This document shows, one piece after another, positions 20,032-30,154 of a stretch of 45,200 nucleotides of DNA. Numbering within the stretch: the stretch's first letter is position 1; every line of letters starts with the position of its first letter. Source of the stretch: Aliarcobacter sp. (GTDB lineage Bacteria; Campylobacterota; Campylobacteria; Campylobacterales; Arcobacteraceae); assembly GCA_028703945.1 (NCBI GenBank), contig JAQVLW010000006.1, forward strand, positions 30,067 to 75,266, written 5' to 3'. The position numbers and the translations under genes were made by a program. Below the pieces are notes generated by a model that saw nothing but the letters and a program-made list of their open reading frames with translations, was not told the origin of the DNA and did not search any database.

Positions 20032-20079
20032 TTTTGCGATCCTTTTTACATTTTATAAAGGGAATCATAATACAATATT

Positions 20080-20092
20080 GATAATAATTATC
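20080..20092. promoter_or_regulatory. Fur-box-like operator, perfect 6-1-6 palindrome
   Basis: GATAATAATTATC matches the Fur core (GATAAT-N-ATTATC) at 12 of 12 arm positions. It lies in the 147-nt divergent gap between exbB (-) and the tolC-macAB operon (+), so it could control both. This is an inference from the motif; no binding evidence is available. Confidence 0.75.
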
Positions 20093-20178
20093 TTAATTGA
20101 AATATACACTTAATGTTTTGTTAAAGATTCATTAAAACAAATCATATACAATTACGATAATTAAATAAAGGAGCTTTT

Positions 20179-24551: not shown

Positions 24552-24586
24552 AATAAAATCTTTTCTATTATAGAGAAGATTTTATT
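24552..24586. terminator. Terminator between macB permease and ankyrin gene
   Basis: 15-bp stem: left arm 24552-24566 (AATAAAATCTTTTCT), loop ATTAT, right arm 24572-24586 (AGAGAAGATTTTATT), with one G-U pair and A/T runs on both flanks. It serves the convergent genes; the ankyrin gene stop codon lies in the right arm. Confidence 0.8.
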
Positions 24587-25100
24587 TTGATTGAAGTAAA
24601 TTAAATTTCTGGATTAGATACTCAATTTTTAGATTATGCGCGAGATTTAATGCACTGTTCCCTAAAAAATCCTCATGAAGAAAGTTTGCCCCATTATCAA
24701 TTAAGTAATTTATACTATTTAATTTATTATATAAAACTGCATAAATAATGGGAGTAGAGTTTATATCATCTATTTCATTTAGGTTTACACCACAATTTCT
24801 AAGGCATTTTATAACTTTTACATTATCCTTATAAACAGCATAATTAATTGCTGATAAATTAGGTGAAACTTCTGTACTAATATTTAGGCGCATTAATTTT
24901 TCTATTGAAGAAATATTTCCTTTGTTTATTGCCCAAAATAAAGCATTTCTTCCTCTAAAATCTTTTGTATTTACATCAATAACTTTAAGAGATAATACTT
25001 CAAATAAAGTATCCCACTTATCTTCATTTATTAAAGTAAAAAAGATTTTATTTAACAGCTGTTCCTCTATATTGTTATTTAAAAAGATATTATTAGACAT
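24582..25100 (-). CDS. Ankyrin-repeat protein
   Basis: A 172-aa cytoplasmic protein with about four ankyrin-like repeats. The clearest are DFRGRNALFWAINKGNISSIEKLM, LSAINYAVYKDNVKVIKCLRNCGVNLN, NSTPIIYAVLYNKLNSINYLIDNGAN and FLGNSALNLAHNLKIEYLI. There is no signal peptide. Partners and function are unknown. AGGAG precedes ATG 25100, and an 11/12 Fur-like box lies 17-29 nt upstream. The position beside iron genes suggests iron-responsive expression. Confidence 0.82.
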   Translation of the reverse strand: MSNNIFLNNNIEEQLLNKIFFTLINEDKWDTLFEVLSLKVIDVNTKDFRGRNALFWAINKGNISSIEKLMRLNISTEVSPNLSAINYAVYKDNVKVIKCLRNCGVNLNEIDDINSTPIIYAVLYNKLNSINYLIDNGANFLHEDFLGNSALNLAHNLKIEYLIQKFNLLQSK

Positions 25101-25116
25101 TTTAACTCCTTTATAT

Positions 25117-25129
25117 TGATAATCAATAT
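25117..25129. promoter_or_regulatory. Fur-box-like operator before the ankyrin gene
   Basis: GATAATCAATATC matches the 6-1-6 Fur core at 11 of 12 arm positions. It overlaps a perfect 17-bp palindrome (ATATTGAT-A-ATCAATAT, 25112-25128). It sits immediately upstream of the ribosome site of the minus-strand ankyrin gene. Confidence 0.55.
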
Positions 25130-25162
25130 CATAATATAAAGAATCTTAAGTGAAGTTTAAAT

Positions 25163-25375
25163 TTAGTCTATTTGAGGTTTTATTTTTTTAGATTTTTTTG
25201 GTTGATATAACATATGATGCCAAAGTGCAAAGCCACAAAATGCAACACCTGCAACAACATGAACTTTTTTAGCAACGCTATTTTTCATAAACATAGAAGT
25301 TACAACAGTAGCACCAAGTGTTGCTGTCATTCCAATTTTTGCAGTTTCTTTTTGCAGTTCTAAATCAAATTTCAT
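25163..25375 (-). CDS. Small two-helix membrane protein, unknown function
   Basis: A 70-aa protein: amphipathic start (MKFDLELQKETAKIG), a first helix (MTATLGATVVTSMFM, about 16-30), a second helix with several His residues (KKVHVVAGVAFCGFALWHHML, about 37-57) and a very basic tail (PKKSKKIKP). The paired His residues on a membrane helix could bind heme or metal; this is speculation. The start ATG 25375 overlaps the end of the 38-aa reading frame, so the two are translated together. It lies downstream of the P1B ATPase operon, behind its own Fur-like boxes. Confidence 0.72.
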   Translation of the reverse strand: MKFDLELQKETAKIGMTATLGATVVTSMFMKNSVAKKVHVVAGVAFCGFALWHHMLYQPKKSKKIKPQID

Positions 25376-25481
25376 CTCTTTCTTTCCTTTTTTTTCTTCG
25401 TTCCATTGTTCTTACAGTTTTATTTATCGTTTTCATAGTTAAAACAGCTGTTAATGCAGTTGCTAGTAATAATATTGGCAT
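25365..25481 (-). CDS. 38-aa membrane-anchored basic peptide
   Basis: A short reading frame with a hydrophobic N-terminus (MPILLLATALTAVLT) and a strongly basic C-terminus (TMERRKKRKERDEI). It is supported by AAAAGGA 7 nt before ATG 25481 and an 11-nt overlap with the next gene. Two Fur-like boxes lie just upstream, at 25494-25506 and 25539-25551. It resembles no family I can name. It is likely a small inner-membrane protein co-expressed with the 70-aa protein. Confidence 0.6.
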   Translation of the reverse strand: MPILLLATALTAVLTMKTINKTVRTMERRKKRKERDEI

Positions 25482-25493
25482 AGTATTCCTTTT

Positions 25494-25506
25494 GATAATA
25501 ATTACC
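25494..25506. promoter_or_regulatory. Fur-box-like operator (proximal) before the small membrane genes
   Basis: GATAATAATTACC matches the 6-1-6 core at 11 of 12 arm positions and lies 13 nt upstream of the 38-aa gene start. Close to a start codon, it would block transcription or early elongation if bound. Confidence 0.55.
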
Positions 25507-25538
25507 ACAATTCTATCAGAAGAATCTTAAATAAAACT

Positions 25539-25551
25539 GATAACTATTATC
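25539..25551. promoter_or_regulatory. Fur-box-like operator (distal) before the small membrane genes
   Basis: GATAACTATTATC matches at 11 of 12 arm positions. It lies between the stop of the P1B ATPase gene (25558) and the 38-aa gene. With the proximal box it forms a pair 45 nt apart, suggesting that the downstream pair of genes has its own iron-controlled promoter. Confidence 0.55.
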
Positions 25552-25557
25552 ATATTA

Positions 25558-27669
25558 CTATCTTATATTAACACCTTTAATTGAATTAAACAATAATCCA
25601 ATAGTAGTTCCATTATGTAAAACAGCTGTTACTATTGGAGAAAACACTCCAAATGTTGCACCTGCAAGGATACAAGAGTTTATTCCAACGGTTGCATTAA
25701 AGTTATTGTTAATCAAATTCATTGTTTTATTAGCATACTCTTTTGCTTCGACAACAGCCATAATATCATCTTTTAACAATGAAATATCAGCCGTTGCTTT
25801 TGCAATATCTGCACCTCTGCTCATTGAAATACCAACATGAGCTGATATAAGTGCTGGTGCATCATTAATTCCATCACCTACAAAAGCCACTTTTTTGCCT
25901 TCATTCATTAGCTCTTTTACTATTCTTGCTTTATCTTGGGGTAAAAGTTCTGCTCTTACTTCATTTATTCCTAATTCATCAGCTATCATTTTTGCTTTTT
26001 GTTTTGTATCACCTGTTAGCATAATGATATTTTTTACGCCTAATTTTTTTAGTTTTGAAATGGCTTCTTTTGAATTGTGTCTTAACTCGTCGGCTAAAGT
26101 AATAGTTCCTAAAAGTTTTCCGTTATAAGCTATATAAAGTAAAGTTCTTCCATCTCTTAAAGAATTTTCAATTTTATCTTTATGTTCAGTGAAATCAATC
26201 TTTTCATCATCTTCTAAAAAGTGGCGACTTCCAATAATTACAGATTTTCCTTTTACTTCTGTTTTTACTCCATGTGCCACTATAAATTCAACTTCTTCAT
26301 GGTGCATGTGAACAAAACCTCTTTGTTTTGCTGCTTTTACAACAGCTTCTGCAACAGGATGAAAATAGTGTTCTTCAGTTGATGCAGTAAGATTTAAGAG
26401 TTCATCTTCACTCCATTTATCATCATAAGATTCCACACAAATTACTTCTAACTCTCCAGCTGTTAAAGTTCCTGTTTTATCAAAAACAAAAGTATCAGCA
26501 TTACTCAAAGCTTCAATTGATTTTGCACCTTTTATCATAATTCCATTATGACCAGCTTTTGAAATAGTAGATTTAAAAGCAACAGGAGTTGCAAGTTTTA
26601 AAGCACAAGAATAATCAGCTTGTAAAATAGAAGCTACTCTTTCAAAATCTTTTGCAAAAATATATGAAATGGTTGCAAGTCCCAAAGTTACTGGAACTAA
26701 TTTATTTGCTAGTTTATTTGCTTTTAATTGAACAGATGATTTTTCATTTAAAGAGTTTTCAATATAGTGTTTTATTCTTTGAGTTGCTGTGTTTGCTCCA
26801 ACATTTTCAGCCCAAATCCTAAATCTTCCTTCTTCTACAATTGTTCCTGAAATTACTCTATCACCTCTATATCTTATTATTGGTTCAGCTTCTCCTGTCA
26901 TTGAAACTTGATTTACGCTTCCCGTTCCCTCAACAATATGTCCATCCACAGGAATCGTATTTCCAATTCCAACTACTACAATATCACCAATTTCAATATT
27001 TTTACTTTTTACTAAGATTTCAGTGATTTTTCCATTTATTTTTTTTTCTATCCAAGCTTCTTCAACATTTGGTTTTGAAAGTTCTTTTAATAAATCATCA
27101 CTTTTGTGAACAGTTGTTTCTTCAATATATTCACCAAGTTCAAGCATTGCATTTGTAGAGTTTGCAGCTAGATAATCTTTTCTATAAATAGAAATTGCAA
27201 CAGCTGCACTTTCTAAAACTTTTGAAGTTAATCCTTCTTTTAATAACTCTTTTGAACCTTCAATTAACAATGGAATTGATGCACCTGTTGTAATTCCTGC
27301 TTTTAATAAATCATTTGTTATAAATCTTTCAGCAATTAACGCACTGGTTGCTCTAACCATTCCATTTATTGATGGTTCTTTACTTCCAACGCAAGATATA
27401 CAAACAGCTGCAACATCGTCTTCGCAAGATTTTAATAAATCTTCAATAGTAAGTTTGTTTAAAATCTCTTCTATTTGTATACTTATATCTTTATGTAATT
27501 CAAAAATAATGCTAAATGCTTTTTTATTTATTCGTACACTTTTTATATCTTTTATTTTTTCAAAATAGTTTTTTAAGATATTTTCATCTATAAATTCATC
27601 TTTTAGTAAAAAATATTTGTATCTAGATCTTAGATTAGTTTGATGTACTTTAATAAATTTTTTATTCAT
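25558..27669 (-). CDS. fezB: P1B-type metal-transporting ATPase, FezB (ferrosome)-like
   Basis: A 703-aa P-type ATPase, last gene of a compact six-gene operon. It has the phosphorylation site Asp397 (FDKTGTLTAG), A-domain TGEAEP, the N-domain HP motif (HYFHPVAEAVV) and P-domain MLTGDTK and GDGINDAPAL. The membrane metal site reads SCALKLATP (Cys355) instead of CPC or SPC, the pattern I associate with the P1B-6 group that includes FezB, an iron transporter of ferrosome membranes. The N-terminal about 80 residues look like a degenerate HMA fold without CxxC; a CISC motif follows near residue 90. It starts 2 nt after the previous stop. The transported ion (Fe2+) is inferred from class and context. 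Confidence 0.8.
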   Translation of the reverse strand: MNKKFIKVHQTNLRSRYKYFLLKDEFIDENILKNYFEKIKDIKSVRINKKAFSIIFELHKDISIQIEEILNKLTIEDLLKSCEDDVAAVCISCVGSKEPSINGMVRATSALIAERFITNDLLKAGITTGASIPLLIEGSKELLKEGLTSKVLESAAVAISIYRKDYLAANSTNAMLELGEYIEETTVHKSDDLLKELSKPNVEEAWIEKKINGKITEILVKSKNIEIGDIVVVGIGNTIPVDGHIVEGTGSVNQVSMTGEAEPIIRYRGDRVISGTIVEEGRFRIWAENVGANTATQRIKHYIENSLNEKSSVQLKANKLANKLVPVTLGLATISYIFAKDFERVASILQADYSCALKLATPVAFKSTISKAGHNGIMIKGAKSIEALSNADTFVFDKTGTLTAGELEVICVESYDDKWSEDELLNLTASTEEHYFHPVAEAVVKAAKQRGFVHMHHEEVEFIVAHGVKTEVKGKSVIIGSRHFLEDDEKIDFTEHKDKIENSLRDGRTLLYIAYNGKLLGTITLADELRHNSKEAISKLKKLGVKNIIMLTGDTKQKAKMIADELGINEVRAELLPQDKARIVKELMNEGKKVAFVGDGINDAPALISAHVGISMSRGADIAKATADISLLKDDIMAVVEAKEYANKTMNLINNNFNATVGINSCILAGATFGVFSPIVTAVLHNGTTIGLLFNSIKGVNIR

Positions 27670-27671
27670 AA

Positions 27672-28028
27672 TTACTGTTCTTGATTAGCTTGCATTTGAG
27701 CTTTTGTATCTTCATATCTCTCTTTTAGCTCTTCAATTCCAGCACTAAAAAGTTCACTTCCTTTTCCAAAAGCTTTAAAAAGAGTATCTTGTGCATTTTT
27801 ATTTGTAAGAAGATAAGTAACTGCAGCTCCTAATAATGCTCCTTTTATAAAATCACCACTTGTAAAAGTGCTTTGTGTTGGAATAGTTCCTTGTTGTGAA
27901 TTTTGTAAAGGATTAAAGTTTTGATTAATATAAGGATTTTGATTTATATTAACACCTGATTGGTTATTCTTTGGTCTACTATTTTCAATATTTATATCAT
28001 ATTGAGCTGGTTGATTTTGATTATTCAT
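27672..28028 (-). CDS. Asn/Gln-rich protein with glycine-zipper membrane helix
   Basis: A 118-aa protein (ATG 28028, MNNQNQPAQYDI). The first about 55 residues are low-complexity, rich in Asn, Gln and Pro. A membrane helix with a glycine zipper follows (FIKGALLGAAVTYLLTN, about 66-82), then an amphipathic Glu/Lys-rich tail (ELFSAGIEELKERYEDTKAQ). A frame extension to 28055 exists, but the internal ATG gives the normal 8-nt overlap with the upstream gene. The function is unrecognised. By position it is a candidate structural protein of the iron compartment, with the N/Q-rich arm perhaps a scaffold or interaction region. Confidence 0.72.
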   Translation of the reverse strand: MNNQNQPAQYDINIENSRPKNNQSGVNINQNPYINQNFNPLQNSQQGTIPTQSTFTSGDFIKGALLGAAVTYLLTNKNAQDTLFKAFGKGSELFSAGIEELKERYEDTKAQMQANQEQ

Positions 28029-28383
28029 AATCTTCTTCCAGTGGACAATTTTCATTTGTTAAATATTTTTGATCAAGTTTTTCTTCAATTACTTCAATAG
28101 CATATATTCCCATCATTCCGATTGATGCAGCAGTTATTGCTTTGAATAATCCACCTTTTTGACCTAAATAATTTGCAGTTGCAATTGCACTTCCTGTAAC
28201 AATAGCACCTTGAGAAGTTCTTTTAATAGTGTCTTTTATAGCATCTTTTTTTGAAATCTCTCTACTTTTTGTTTTTTTATAGTTAATTGCACCACTTATA
28301 ATTGCACTTGCAACCGCACCACTTATTACATGTCCTAATACATTTCTTGGTGTTCCTGTATTAATAGTTAAATCTTTTATCAT
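28021..28383 (-). CDS. Glycine-rich multi-helix membrane protein
   Basis: A 120-aa protein from ATG 28383 (MIKDLTINTGTPRNVLGH), overlapping the upstream stop as ATGA; the longer frame from 28443 is not needed. It has three Gly/Ala-rich hydrophobic segments: VLGHVISGAVASAIISGAI (about 15-33), TSQGAIVTGSAIATANYLG (about 56-74) and FKAITAASIGMMGIYAIEVI (about 79-98). They are separated by a Lys-rich loop, and the tail is acidic with one Cys. Such packing is reminiscent of magnetosome-type membrane proteins. No defined family is recognised; a role in the iron-storage membrane is inferred from the operon. Confidence 0.7.
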   Translation of the reverse strand: MIKDLTINTGTPRNVLGHVISGAVASAIISGAINYKKTKSREISKKDAIKDTIKRTSQGAIVTGSAIATANYLGQKGGLFKAITAASIGMMGIYAIEVIEEKLDQKYLTNENCPLEEDYE

Positions 28384-28616
28384 AATACTTCTTCCTTGAT
28401 TTTTTCTTTTTTCTTCTCTTCTACACACTCTTTTGTAGCACAAATAGTTTCTTTGATTTCGTTTACATTTTCTTTAGTTTTTTCTAAAGTAGCATTTGCA
28501 AAATCTTTTGATTTTTTAAATAATTTTGAAGTTTTTTCTTTTAAAGTATCTTTATTTTTAAAAGCAATAACAGCACCAGCACCAACAGCTAAACCTAATA
28601 TAAATGGTAAAGGCAT
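28380..28616 (-). CDS. YtxH-like small membrane protein with charged coiled tail
   Basis: A 78-aa protein with an N-terminal glycine-zipper helix (PFILGLAVGAGAVIAF, residues 4-19), then a long Lys/Glu-rich amphipathic helix, two Cys in the segment ETICATKECVEEKKK, and a charged end. It resembles YtxH-like proteins in layout only. It starts 3 nt after the ferritin-like gene stop and overlaps the next gene by 4 nt. It is probably membrane-anchored with a cytoplasmic helical arm. Confidence 0.72.
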   Translation of the reverse strand: MPLPFILGLAVGAGAVIAFKNKDTLKEKTSKLFKKSKDFANATLEKTKENVNEIKETICATKECVEEKKKEKIKEEVL

Positions 28617-28619
28617 TTT

Positions 28620-29306
28620 TTACTCCTCTTCTTCAGTAATATTTTTTTTTGAAAGGTAATTATTTAAAATTGCAATAGTAGCAGCTCCTAAAACAGCACC
28701 ACTAACCATAGATAAATTTAATTTAGAGAAAATATTAGAGATTGAACTCTCATCAATATTTCCACTCATAATATCATCTAATATAACTTGATATTCTCCT
28801 AGTTTTTCCATAATATTTTCTGGATTGATATTTGTTATACTTCCACTATTATAATGGCTTAATACAGAATTTCTAAATGCTGGTAAATGGTTATTAAAAG
28901 ATGCTGCTTGAAGTCTATAAAGAGTGTCTTTTACATCATTTTCAATTGTAAATCCTAGTAAATTGTTGTACATAGCAATATTACTTATTTCACCAGCAAC
29001 TCCTAATTCGCAACACTCTATTAAAGTATTTGGGATTTCTATTTTTGAAGCCCAATCGTTTATGGGAACTTCAACTCCATACTTTTCCATTAATTTTATA
29101 AGTGCAGCATAATGTACAGCTTCAGCTTCTTTTATATTTACAAAAGGTTGAAGTAAACCAAATCTTTCAATTATTTTTGTATAAGTTTCATAAGCTTTAA
29201 ACTCATCATAAACAGCAATTCTTAAAATTTGAGAAATTATGGGTATTTGACTATTTACATCAATTCGAGCGGATATTAATAGTGCTTCATCAATATTTGT
29301 TTCCAA
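28620..29306 (-). CDS. Membrane-anchored ferritin-like protein
   Basis: A 228-aa protein with a four-helix ferritin-like domain (about residues 15-165): helix A YDEFKAYETYTKIIERFG, helix B with an ExxH pair (EAEAVHYAALIKLMEKYG), helix C GVAGEISNIAMYNNLL and helix D QAASFNNHLPAFRNSVL. Helix D keeps His, but the expected carboxylate beside it looks replaced by Asn, so the di-metal site may be incomplete. Unlike soluble ferritins it ends with a membrane helix (MVSGAVLGAATIAILNNYL, about 199-217) and an acidic tail (EEEE). It is second in the six-gene operon, directly abutting the HMA-like gene. Confidence 0.75.
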   Translation of the reverse strand: METNIDEALLISARIDVNSQIPIISQILRIAVYDEFKAYETYTKIIERFGLLQPFVNIKEAEAVHYAALIKLMEKYGVEVPINDWASKIEIPNTLIECCELGVAGEISNIAMYNNLLGFTIENDVKDTLYRLQAASFNNHLPAFRNSVLSHYNSGSITNINPENIMEKLGEYQVILDDIMSGNIDESSISNIFSKLNLSMVSGAVLGAATIAILNNYLSKKNITEEEE

Positions 29307-29621
29307 TTAAATAACCTCCTTTGCAAGTCTATTTATTAATATAGATAATTCTTCTATATTTTTATTTTTAACCAAATCTTCCCAATGTGTTGGTTTGAAT
29401 ATAGTTGGCTCATAAATGATTGTAATAGATGCAATAATTTTATTTATTTTAATACTAATTATTCCATCTATTTTATTTGGTAAATTTTCAATATCACTGA
29501 TAGTTATATTCCCACCTGAATCTTTTATTTTAGGATTTACTCTAACCCTTAATCTCCCAGGTGTGTGGGCGATAATTGAAAAAAAACTAGCAATTTTTAT
29601 AATATCTTCTGTACTAATCAA
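29307..29621 (-). CDS. HMA-like (HMA2-type) small protein, first gene of ferrosome-like operon
   Basis: A 104-aa protein. After a short N-terminus it reads IIAHTPGRLRVRVNPKIKD, then about two betaalphabeta elements (ISDIENLPNKIDGIISIKINKIIASITIIYEP), matching the ferredoxin-like HMA2 fold, but without the CxxC metal site. It could be a metal-chaperone-like adaptor or a lipid/partner-binding module for the P1B ATPase, whose own N-terminus is similarly degenerate. AAGGA lies before ATG 29621. The operon promoter with a Fur-like element lies in the 80-nt gap upstream. Similarity to fez operon members is inferred. Confidence 0.72.
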   Translation of the reverse strand: MISTEDIIKIASFFSIIAHTPGRLRVRVNPKIKDSGGNITISDIENLPNKIDGIISIKINKIIASITIIYEPTIFKPTHWEDLVKNKNIEELSILINRLAKEVI

Positions 29622-29673: not shown

Positions 29674-29696
29674 ATTATAAATTAAAAATCATTATC
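29674..29696 (-). promoter_or_regulatory. Putative promoter and Fur-like element of the ferrosome-like operon
   Basis: On the minus strand a TATAAT -10 hexamer (29679-29674) is preceded by GATAATGATTTTT (29696-29684), which keeps 10 of 12 positions of the Fur core, in the -10/-35 spacer. The start codon of the first gene is about 50 nt downstream. The layout fits repression by Fur or the adjacent Fur paralogue. Confidence 0.5.
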
Positions 29697-29701
29697 AGTT
29701 T

Positions 29702-30154
29702 TTATTTTTGGCAGGTTTCACAAACCCCATAAATAGTCATAACATGTTCTTTTAAAATAAAATTATTCTTTTCAGCAATTTTCATTTGTTTTAATTCTAT
29801 TAAATTATCTGAAAATTCTATAATAATTCCGCAAGAAGTACAAATAAGATGGTCATGATGTTCAGCAATATTTAGTTCATATCTAACAACACCATCTCCA
29901 ATATCCAATTGATTTACGAGCTTTGTATCATGAAAAAATTTCATAGCACGATAGACAGTTGCGATTCCAATTGATACATTATAGTTTTGTTTGATTTTAT
30001 TTGAAATCTCATCAGCTGTTAAATGTTCTTTTGAAAAATATAAAATTTTTAATATATAATCTTTTTGAATTGAGTTTTTTAAACCTATCTTTGATACATT
30101 ATTTTTAAAGTTTCTTAAAAAAATATCAAATGATATTTCTTGATTATTTTCCAT
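29702..30154 (-). CDS. Fur-family transcriptional regulator
   Basis: A 150-aa metal-dependent repressor. The N-terminal winged helix (LKNSIQKDYILKILYFSKEHLTADEISNKI, IGIATVYRAMKFF) is followed by the dimer/metal domain with EHHDHLICTSCG and a C-terminal second Cys pair (VCETCQ), i.e. two CxxC structural zinc ligands. It could be Fur, PerR or a system-specific paralogue; sequence alone does not decide. It lies directly upstream of the ferrosome-like operon in the same direction, like dedicated regulators of such clusters. Its ATG overlaps the stop of a 47-aa reading frame (TAATG), so translation is coupled. Confidence 0.92.
   Translation of the reverse strand: MENNQEISFDIFLRNFKNNVSKIGLKNSIQKDYILKILYFSKEHLTADEISNKIKQNYNVSIGIATVYRAMKFFHDTKLVNQLDIGDGVVRYELNIAEHHDHLICTSCGIIIEFSDNLIELKQMKIAEKNNFILKEHVMTIYGVCETCQK

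Follow-up and report, generated by a model that had tools for sequence, protein, structure and literature searches.

Does the compact gene cluster in this Aliarcobacter contig encode a ferrosome, and which genes belong to it? The window, that is, the 45,200 nucleotides of contig JAQVLW010000006.1 analysed here, contains six tightly packed genes at 25558-29621, all on the minus strand, which the initial annotation had described as a compact six-gene ferrosome-like (fez) iron-storage operon. The open reading frames, named g1 to g6, span 29621-29307, 29306-28620, 28616-28380, 28383-28021, 28028-27672 and 27669-25558. The junctions between them are, in order, 0 nt, 3 nt, a 4-nt overlap, an 8-nt overlap and 2 nt, and the compact arrangement is thus as described. 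The same is true of the domain content: a weak HMA_2 protein, a ferritin-like/DUF2202 protein, three small Gly-rich membrane proteins and a P1B ATPase. The unit extends beyond 25558, however. The full operon has eight genes, in which g1-g6 are followed, after a 76-nt gap, by two genes that overlap each other (g7 and g8). The order g1-g2-g3-g4-g5-g6 is kept in all 20 sampled Arcobacteraceae loci, representing 13 genera, and a match to the ferritin-like gene was obtained in 67 of 104 Arcobacteraceae genomes (E<=0.001, a few of the matches being weak), which indicates that the arrangement did not arise by chance. Both g7 and g8 are conserved in most Arcobacteraceae relatives, and g8 follows the core in 18 of the 20 loci. 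Many other genera beyond the Arcobacteraceae also have the fez synteny.

The ferrosomes of Rhodopseudomonas palustris CGA009 are the product of six genes, RPA2333-2338 (PMC12016538). We read the Rhodopseudomonas operon in congeneric genomes, and this reference set is defined by genus and gene order rather than by accession. The genome with the reference FezA-FezB-FezC homologues is one that we take to be that of Desulfovibrio magneticus RS-1. The inferred FezB of this genome has as neighbours a g3-like protein of 86 aa and a protein of 146 aa with an HMA domain and a g8-like end, so the cluster fits fezA-fezB-fezC.

The g6 protein (25558-27669, minus strand; 703 aa) matches the P1B ATPase model TIGR01525 with E=8e-147. 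It has SCALKLATP at residue 354, and its TGE, DKTGT, HP and GDGxND motifs are intact. The hhalign comparison with Rhodopseudomonas-type FezB gives E=8e-191, and the identity to Rhodopseudomonas FezB is about 50% over the matched part. In a tree of 60 P1B ATPases, g6 falls in a clade of 34 sequences (support 100/100) together with Rhodopseudomonas FezB and the inferred D. magneticus FezB. The references of P1B-1 (CopA, SilP), P1B-2 (ZntA, CadA, PbrA-type) and P1B-5 (a PCP-motif protein on pSymA) lie outside this clade; P1B-4 is absent from the tree, as no certain P1B-4 sequence was obtained (pMOL30 was read for one). Four other P1B ATPases found in the same genome, all with CPC motifs, also lie outside. 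The ATPase, for which grouping with the Cu/Zn P1B classes had been named as the adverse outcome, groups with FezB instead, and g6 is identified by its phylogeny as FezB, a P1B-6-type ATPase.

Additional P1B ATPases are found at fez clusters elsewhere. In some clusters (L043, L044, L048, L051, L081, L153, L206 and L207), a second ATPase with the site CPC[AS]TxLAASTA, forming its own clade (100/100), is encoded just upstream of the HMA gene, and the Desulfovibrionaceae loci L206 and L207 have a third P1B ATPase after a FeoA-type gene. FezB-type ATPases of Gemella, Akkermansia and Jettenia (L073, L077, L083, L092, L131 and L121) have no recognisable MamC-like or YtxH-like partners.

The small proteins could not be assigned by Pfam and NCBIfam family names alone, which were too weak, and their identities were resolved by profile-profile comparison. 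We used hhalign to compare profiles of the Arcobacteraceae genes with those of Rhodopseudomonas-type operons, mostly from alphaproteobacterial loci and a few others. All six Rhodopseudomonas fez genes have a counterpart at the locus. The HMA_2-like protein g1 (29307-29621, minus strand; 104 aa, TTG start) matches Pfam HMA_2 with E=2e-5, below the curated cut-off, and the HMA protein family of the Rhodopseudomonas operon with E=2.9e-8. The FezA-like g3 (28380-28616, minus strand; 78 aa), which has an N-terminal Gly-rich helix, shows modest matches to the Rhodopseudomonas 107-aa protein (hhalign E=3.6e-6) and to the 86-aa protein encoded next to the inferred D. magneticus FezB (hmmsearch E=3e-5). 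The two-helix membrane protein g4 (28021-28383, minus strand; 120 aa) and the YtxH-like g5 (27672-28028, minus strand; 118 aa) match their Rhodopseudomonas fez counterparts with hhalign E=2.1e-10 and 2e-16, respectively. Off-target profile pairs are weaker, except for FezC against g1 (2.6e-8), which both have an HMA domain, and a weak cross-match between g5 and g3 (1.5e-4). The homology of the small proteins to Fez members, which had at first only been inferred, is therefore borne out gene by gene.

The g4 protein in the window also matches the NCBIfam model for the magnetosome protein MamC (E=6.5e-4, 20 bits), without reaching its equivalog cut-off of 100 bits. The model is matched by 24 of 34 members of the g4 family, in many of them remotely over nearly the whole profile. 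The best match is in Desulfovibrionaceae (1.3e-10), the best score is 41.4 bits, and relatives in Vibrio and Ferrimonas match with about 1e-8; the family members of Rhodopseudomonas and Azospirillum do not match the model. All 24 matches are well under the 100-bit cut-off, and we rejected g4 as a MamC equivalog. By these profile matches, g4 is a remote relative of MamC and not a member of the MamC family.

Downstream of fezB, g7 (25365-25481, minus strand) encodes a predicted 38-aa single-helix basic protein, counted from its ATG; its position is conserved in most Arcobacteraceae. The FezC-like g8 (25163-25375, minus strand) encodes a membrane protein of 70 aa with two conserved histidines. 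In an alignment with the inferred D. magneticus FezC and Rhodopseudomonas FezC, G43 and H53 are invariant and H39 is nearly so. The matches to these two proteins are modest (hmmsearch E=3.6e-5 and hhalign E=6.4e-5, respectively), and that to Pfam DUF4405 (0.009) is below the cut-off. Haem B binding by FezC has been found experimentally for the Desulfurispirillum indicum protein (PMC11334425), and both histidines are kept in g8. Several relatives (L044:9882-10559, L051, L081 and L063) have a fusion of g8 with a SpoIIAA-like domain (PF11964, up to 2e-20). An ankyrin-repeat gene lies downstream of g8 in the window, at 24582-25136, and has a Fur-box-like palindrome of its own (25112-25136).

The second gene, g2 (28620-29306, minus strand), encodes a protein of 228 aa that matches ferritin-like/DUF2202 profiles with 9e-5, the matching profiles being those of DUF2202 and rubrerythrin, and its nearest solved sequence is MJ0754. 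The AlphaFold2 model is a four-helix bundle with a pLDDT of 94-98 over residues ~11-150, and it matches bacterioferritins with Z of about 17. As helical models can reach Z of up to about 14 without kinship, profile and ligand evidence also counts beside the fold match. Diiron-type ligand positions are found at E35, E62, H65, E106 and H140, and 26 of the 34 proteins in the alignment have all five. In the g2 family, helix 4 has Phe, Tyr or Leu in place of its usual Glu. The ligands are partly lost in several Helicobacter and Campylobacter members and in some others, so we rejected a ferroxidase role for all g2 proteins. On profile and model evidence, g2 belongs to the ferritin-like superfamily and has a predicted diiron-type site. 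The C-terminal 57 residues of g2 form a separate Gly-rich module. The same module is the C terminus of a Pro/Gln-rich Desulfovibrionaceae protein (4.9e-8 and 3.2e-6) and of a Cereibacter protein (1.1e-5), and the search gave no matches on shuffled sequences. It is shared with a fez protein in lineages that lack the ferritin domain. Because of this recurrence, g2 appears to be a ferritin domain fused to a fez membrane module.

A g2-type gene is present in 15 of 19 Campylobacterales operons, in six of six from Rhodocyclales and in the only Pseudomonadales operon with full upstream sequence; none was found in the nine alphaproteobacterial operons examined. It lies between the HMA and FezA-like genes in two phyla. 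FezB is found in 102 of approximately 300 Campylobacterota genomes, and 97 of these 102 also have g2 (96 matched, plus G003, which was missing from the second search). Eleven Campylobacterota genomes have a g2 match without FezB, and these are weak matches to the ferritin domain only.

All six gene families of the R. palustris operon have homologues at the Aliarcobacter locus, as the proposed six-gene parallel had implied, but the six genes originally listed include the extra ferritin-like gene and omit fezC (g8). Compared with R. palustris, the Aliarcobacter locus adds the ferritin-like gene and g7, has fezC last rather than first and without the N-terminal HMA part, and has separate Fur-box-like sites before g7-g8. 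The FezA-like, FezB and FezC families are common to Aliarcobacter and the presumed D. magneticus fezABC, whereas the latter set has three genes, with no MamC-like, YtxH-like or ferritin-like gene seen in that cluster, and its FezC carries an HMA domain, which g8 does not. Thauera and other Rhodocyclales, as well as Azotobacter, have the HMA, ferritin-like, FezA-like, MamC-like, YtxH-like and FezB genes in the same order, and the g8 profile found no g8-type FezC downstream of these clusters. The designation 'Arcobacter-type' is right in denoting a fez operon but too narrow, as the variant spans the Campylobacterales and a similar order is found in Rhodocyclales and Azotobacter. The g2 protein has the ferritin-like domain in common with DUF2202/MJ0754-like ferritin-fold proteins; unlike them, it is fused to a Gly-rich membrane anchor and encoded inside a fez operon. 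A complete ferritin-bearing fez operon is carried by an Arcobacter plasmid from chicken meat (L061, CP129951.1), and fez clusters are likewise present on plasmids of Azospirillum and Vibrio.

A Fur-family regulator gene (29702-30154, minus strand; FUR E=2e-32) lies directly upstream of g1, associated with the operon but not a Fez part, and most relatives have such a gene next to the operon or close by. The genome has four Fur-family genes, of which the operon-adjacent one is not the best match, and calling it a Fur paralogue was fair. A Fur-box-like GATAATGAT element is found ~75 nt upstream of g1 (29678-29696, minus strand) at a position that recurs in relatives: in most of 21 Arcobacteraceae loci, a GATAATGA element precedes g1 by ~70-76 nt, although in single genomes it is only marginally above shuffles. 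Between fezB and g7, the Fur-box-like palindrome GATAATAGTTATCA (25533-25557, minus strand) is intact in nine of 13 Arcobacteraceae. A second site before g7 (25494-25512, minus strand) reads GATAAT-n-ATTATC in most relatives and is imperfect in the window. At least one intact palindrome of this type is found in the fezB-g7 gap in 11 of the 13 Arcobacteraceae examined. The fez genes of Clostridioides difficile are repressed by Fur (PMC12574912). The Fur-box-like sites of the Aliarcobacter locus suggest induction in iron starvation, and we infer Fur control of the operon. Another Fur-box-like palindrome lies at 20074-20098 of the window, flanked by an ExbB-like gene and a gene for an outer-membrane efflux (TolC-like) protein.

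Six gene-for-gene profile matches, the FezB clade (100/100) and the synteny together indicate that the locus is very probably a ferrosome operon, from which organelle formation and iron storage can be predicted; the original fez reading is supported. The model best supported by homology is as follows. FezB would move Fe(II) into a compartment formed by vesicles or by inward budding of the cytoplasmic membrane. The Gly-rich g3, g4 and g5 proteins would shape or coat this membrane. The HMA protein g1 would deliver or sense metal, and transmembrane electron transfer by FezC would allow iron to be redox-cycled. The diiron ferritin-like four-helix domain of g2 would be placed on the ferrosome membrane through its Fez-type anchor, where it would most likely oxidise or buffer Fe(II) at the surface. 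We infer the direction of transport, and likewise the membrane localisation and chemistry of g2.

Alternatively, the ATPase might export Fe(II) across the cytoplasmic membrane, with the small proteins as accessories and no organelle. For one P1B-5 ATPase, a link to the export of Fe(II) and Ni(II) has been described. The export reading is improbable here, since the fez partners are conserved as a complete set and operons of this kind give rise to ferrosomes in R. palustris; g6 also lies outside the P1B-5 branch in our tree, which has no P1B-4 reference. Still less probable, to the point of being hardly credible, is a copper or zinc detoxification operon: general P1B profiles do score high with g6, but its membrane site is SCALKLATP instead of CPC, and the tree parts it from the CopA- and ZntA-type references and from the four CPC-motif paralogues in the genome.

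Within the ferrosome reading, g2 might store or detoxify iron on its own and have no more than the transcript in common with the fez genes. An ordinary ferritin is encoded elsewhere in the genome, and free-standing DUF2202-type matches occur in other Campylobacterota. We consider this unlikely, because the C-terminal anchor of g2 is common to fez proteins, the gene keeps its place between the HMA and FezA-like genes in two phyla, and it tracks FezB across genomes. A ferrosome-associated g2 is the reading that we prefer.

The fez operon itself is already known. In the literature that we searched, a partial set without the primary ferrosome papers, we found nothing relevant on ferrosomes in Arcobacter or Campylobacterota, and no Campylobacterota ferrosome experiment; prior mention is possible. 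Likewise, we came across no description in this set of the anchored ferritin-like fez component or of its distribution among Campylobacterota and Rhodocyclales. By sequence homology, the ferritin-bearing form of the operon is found across relatives of Arcobacter, Campylobacter and Helicobacter. We suggest, with a confidence somewhat short of even, that Campylobacterota and also Rhodocyclales might have hybrid iron stores with a membrane-tethered ferritin-fold enzyme, and that a MamC-type protein common to ferrosomes and magnetosomes might hint at a common ancestry of some of their parts. The locus gives a precise and testable prediction, namely that a large group including Campylobacter concisus and Helicobacter species has a lipid-bounded iron organelle. 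A membrane-anchored ferritin-like protein would join two known kinds of bacterial iron storage, and the relation to MamC would open the origin of magnetosomes and ferrosomes to testing.
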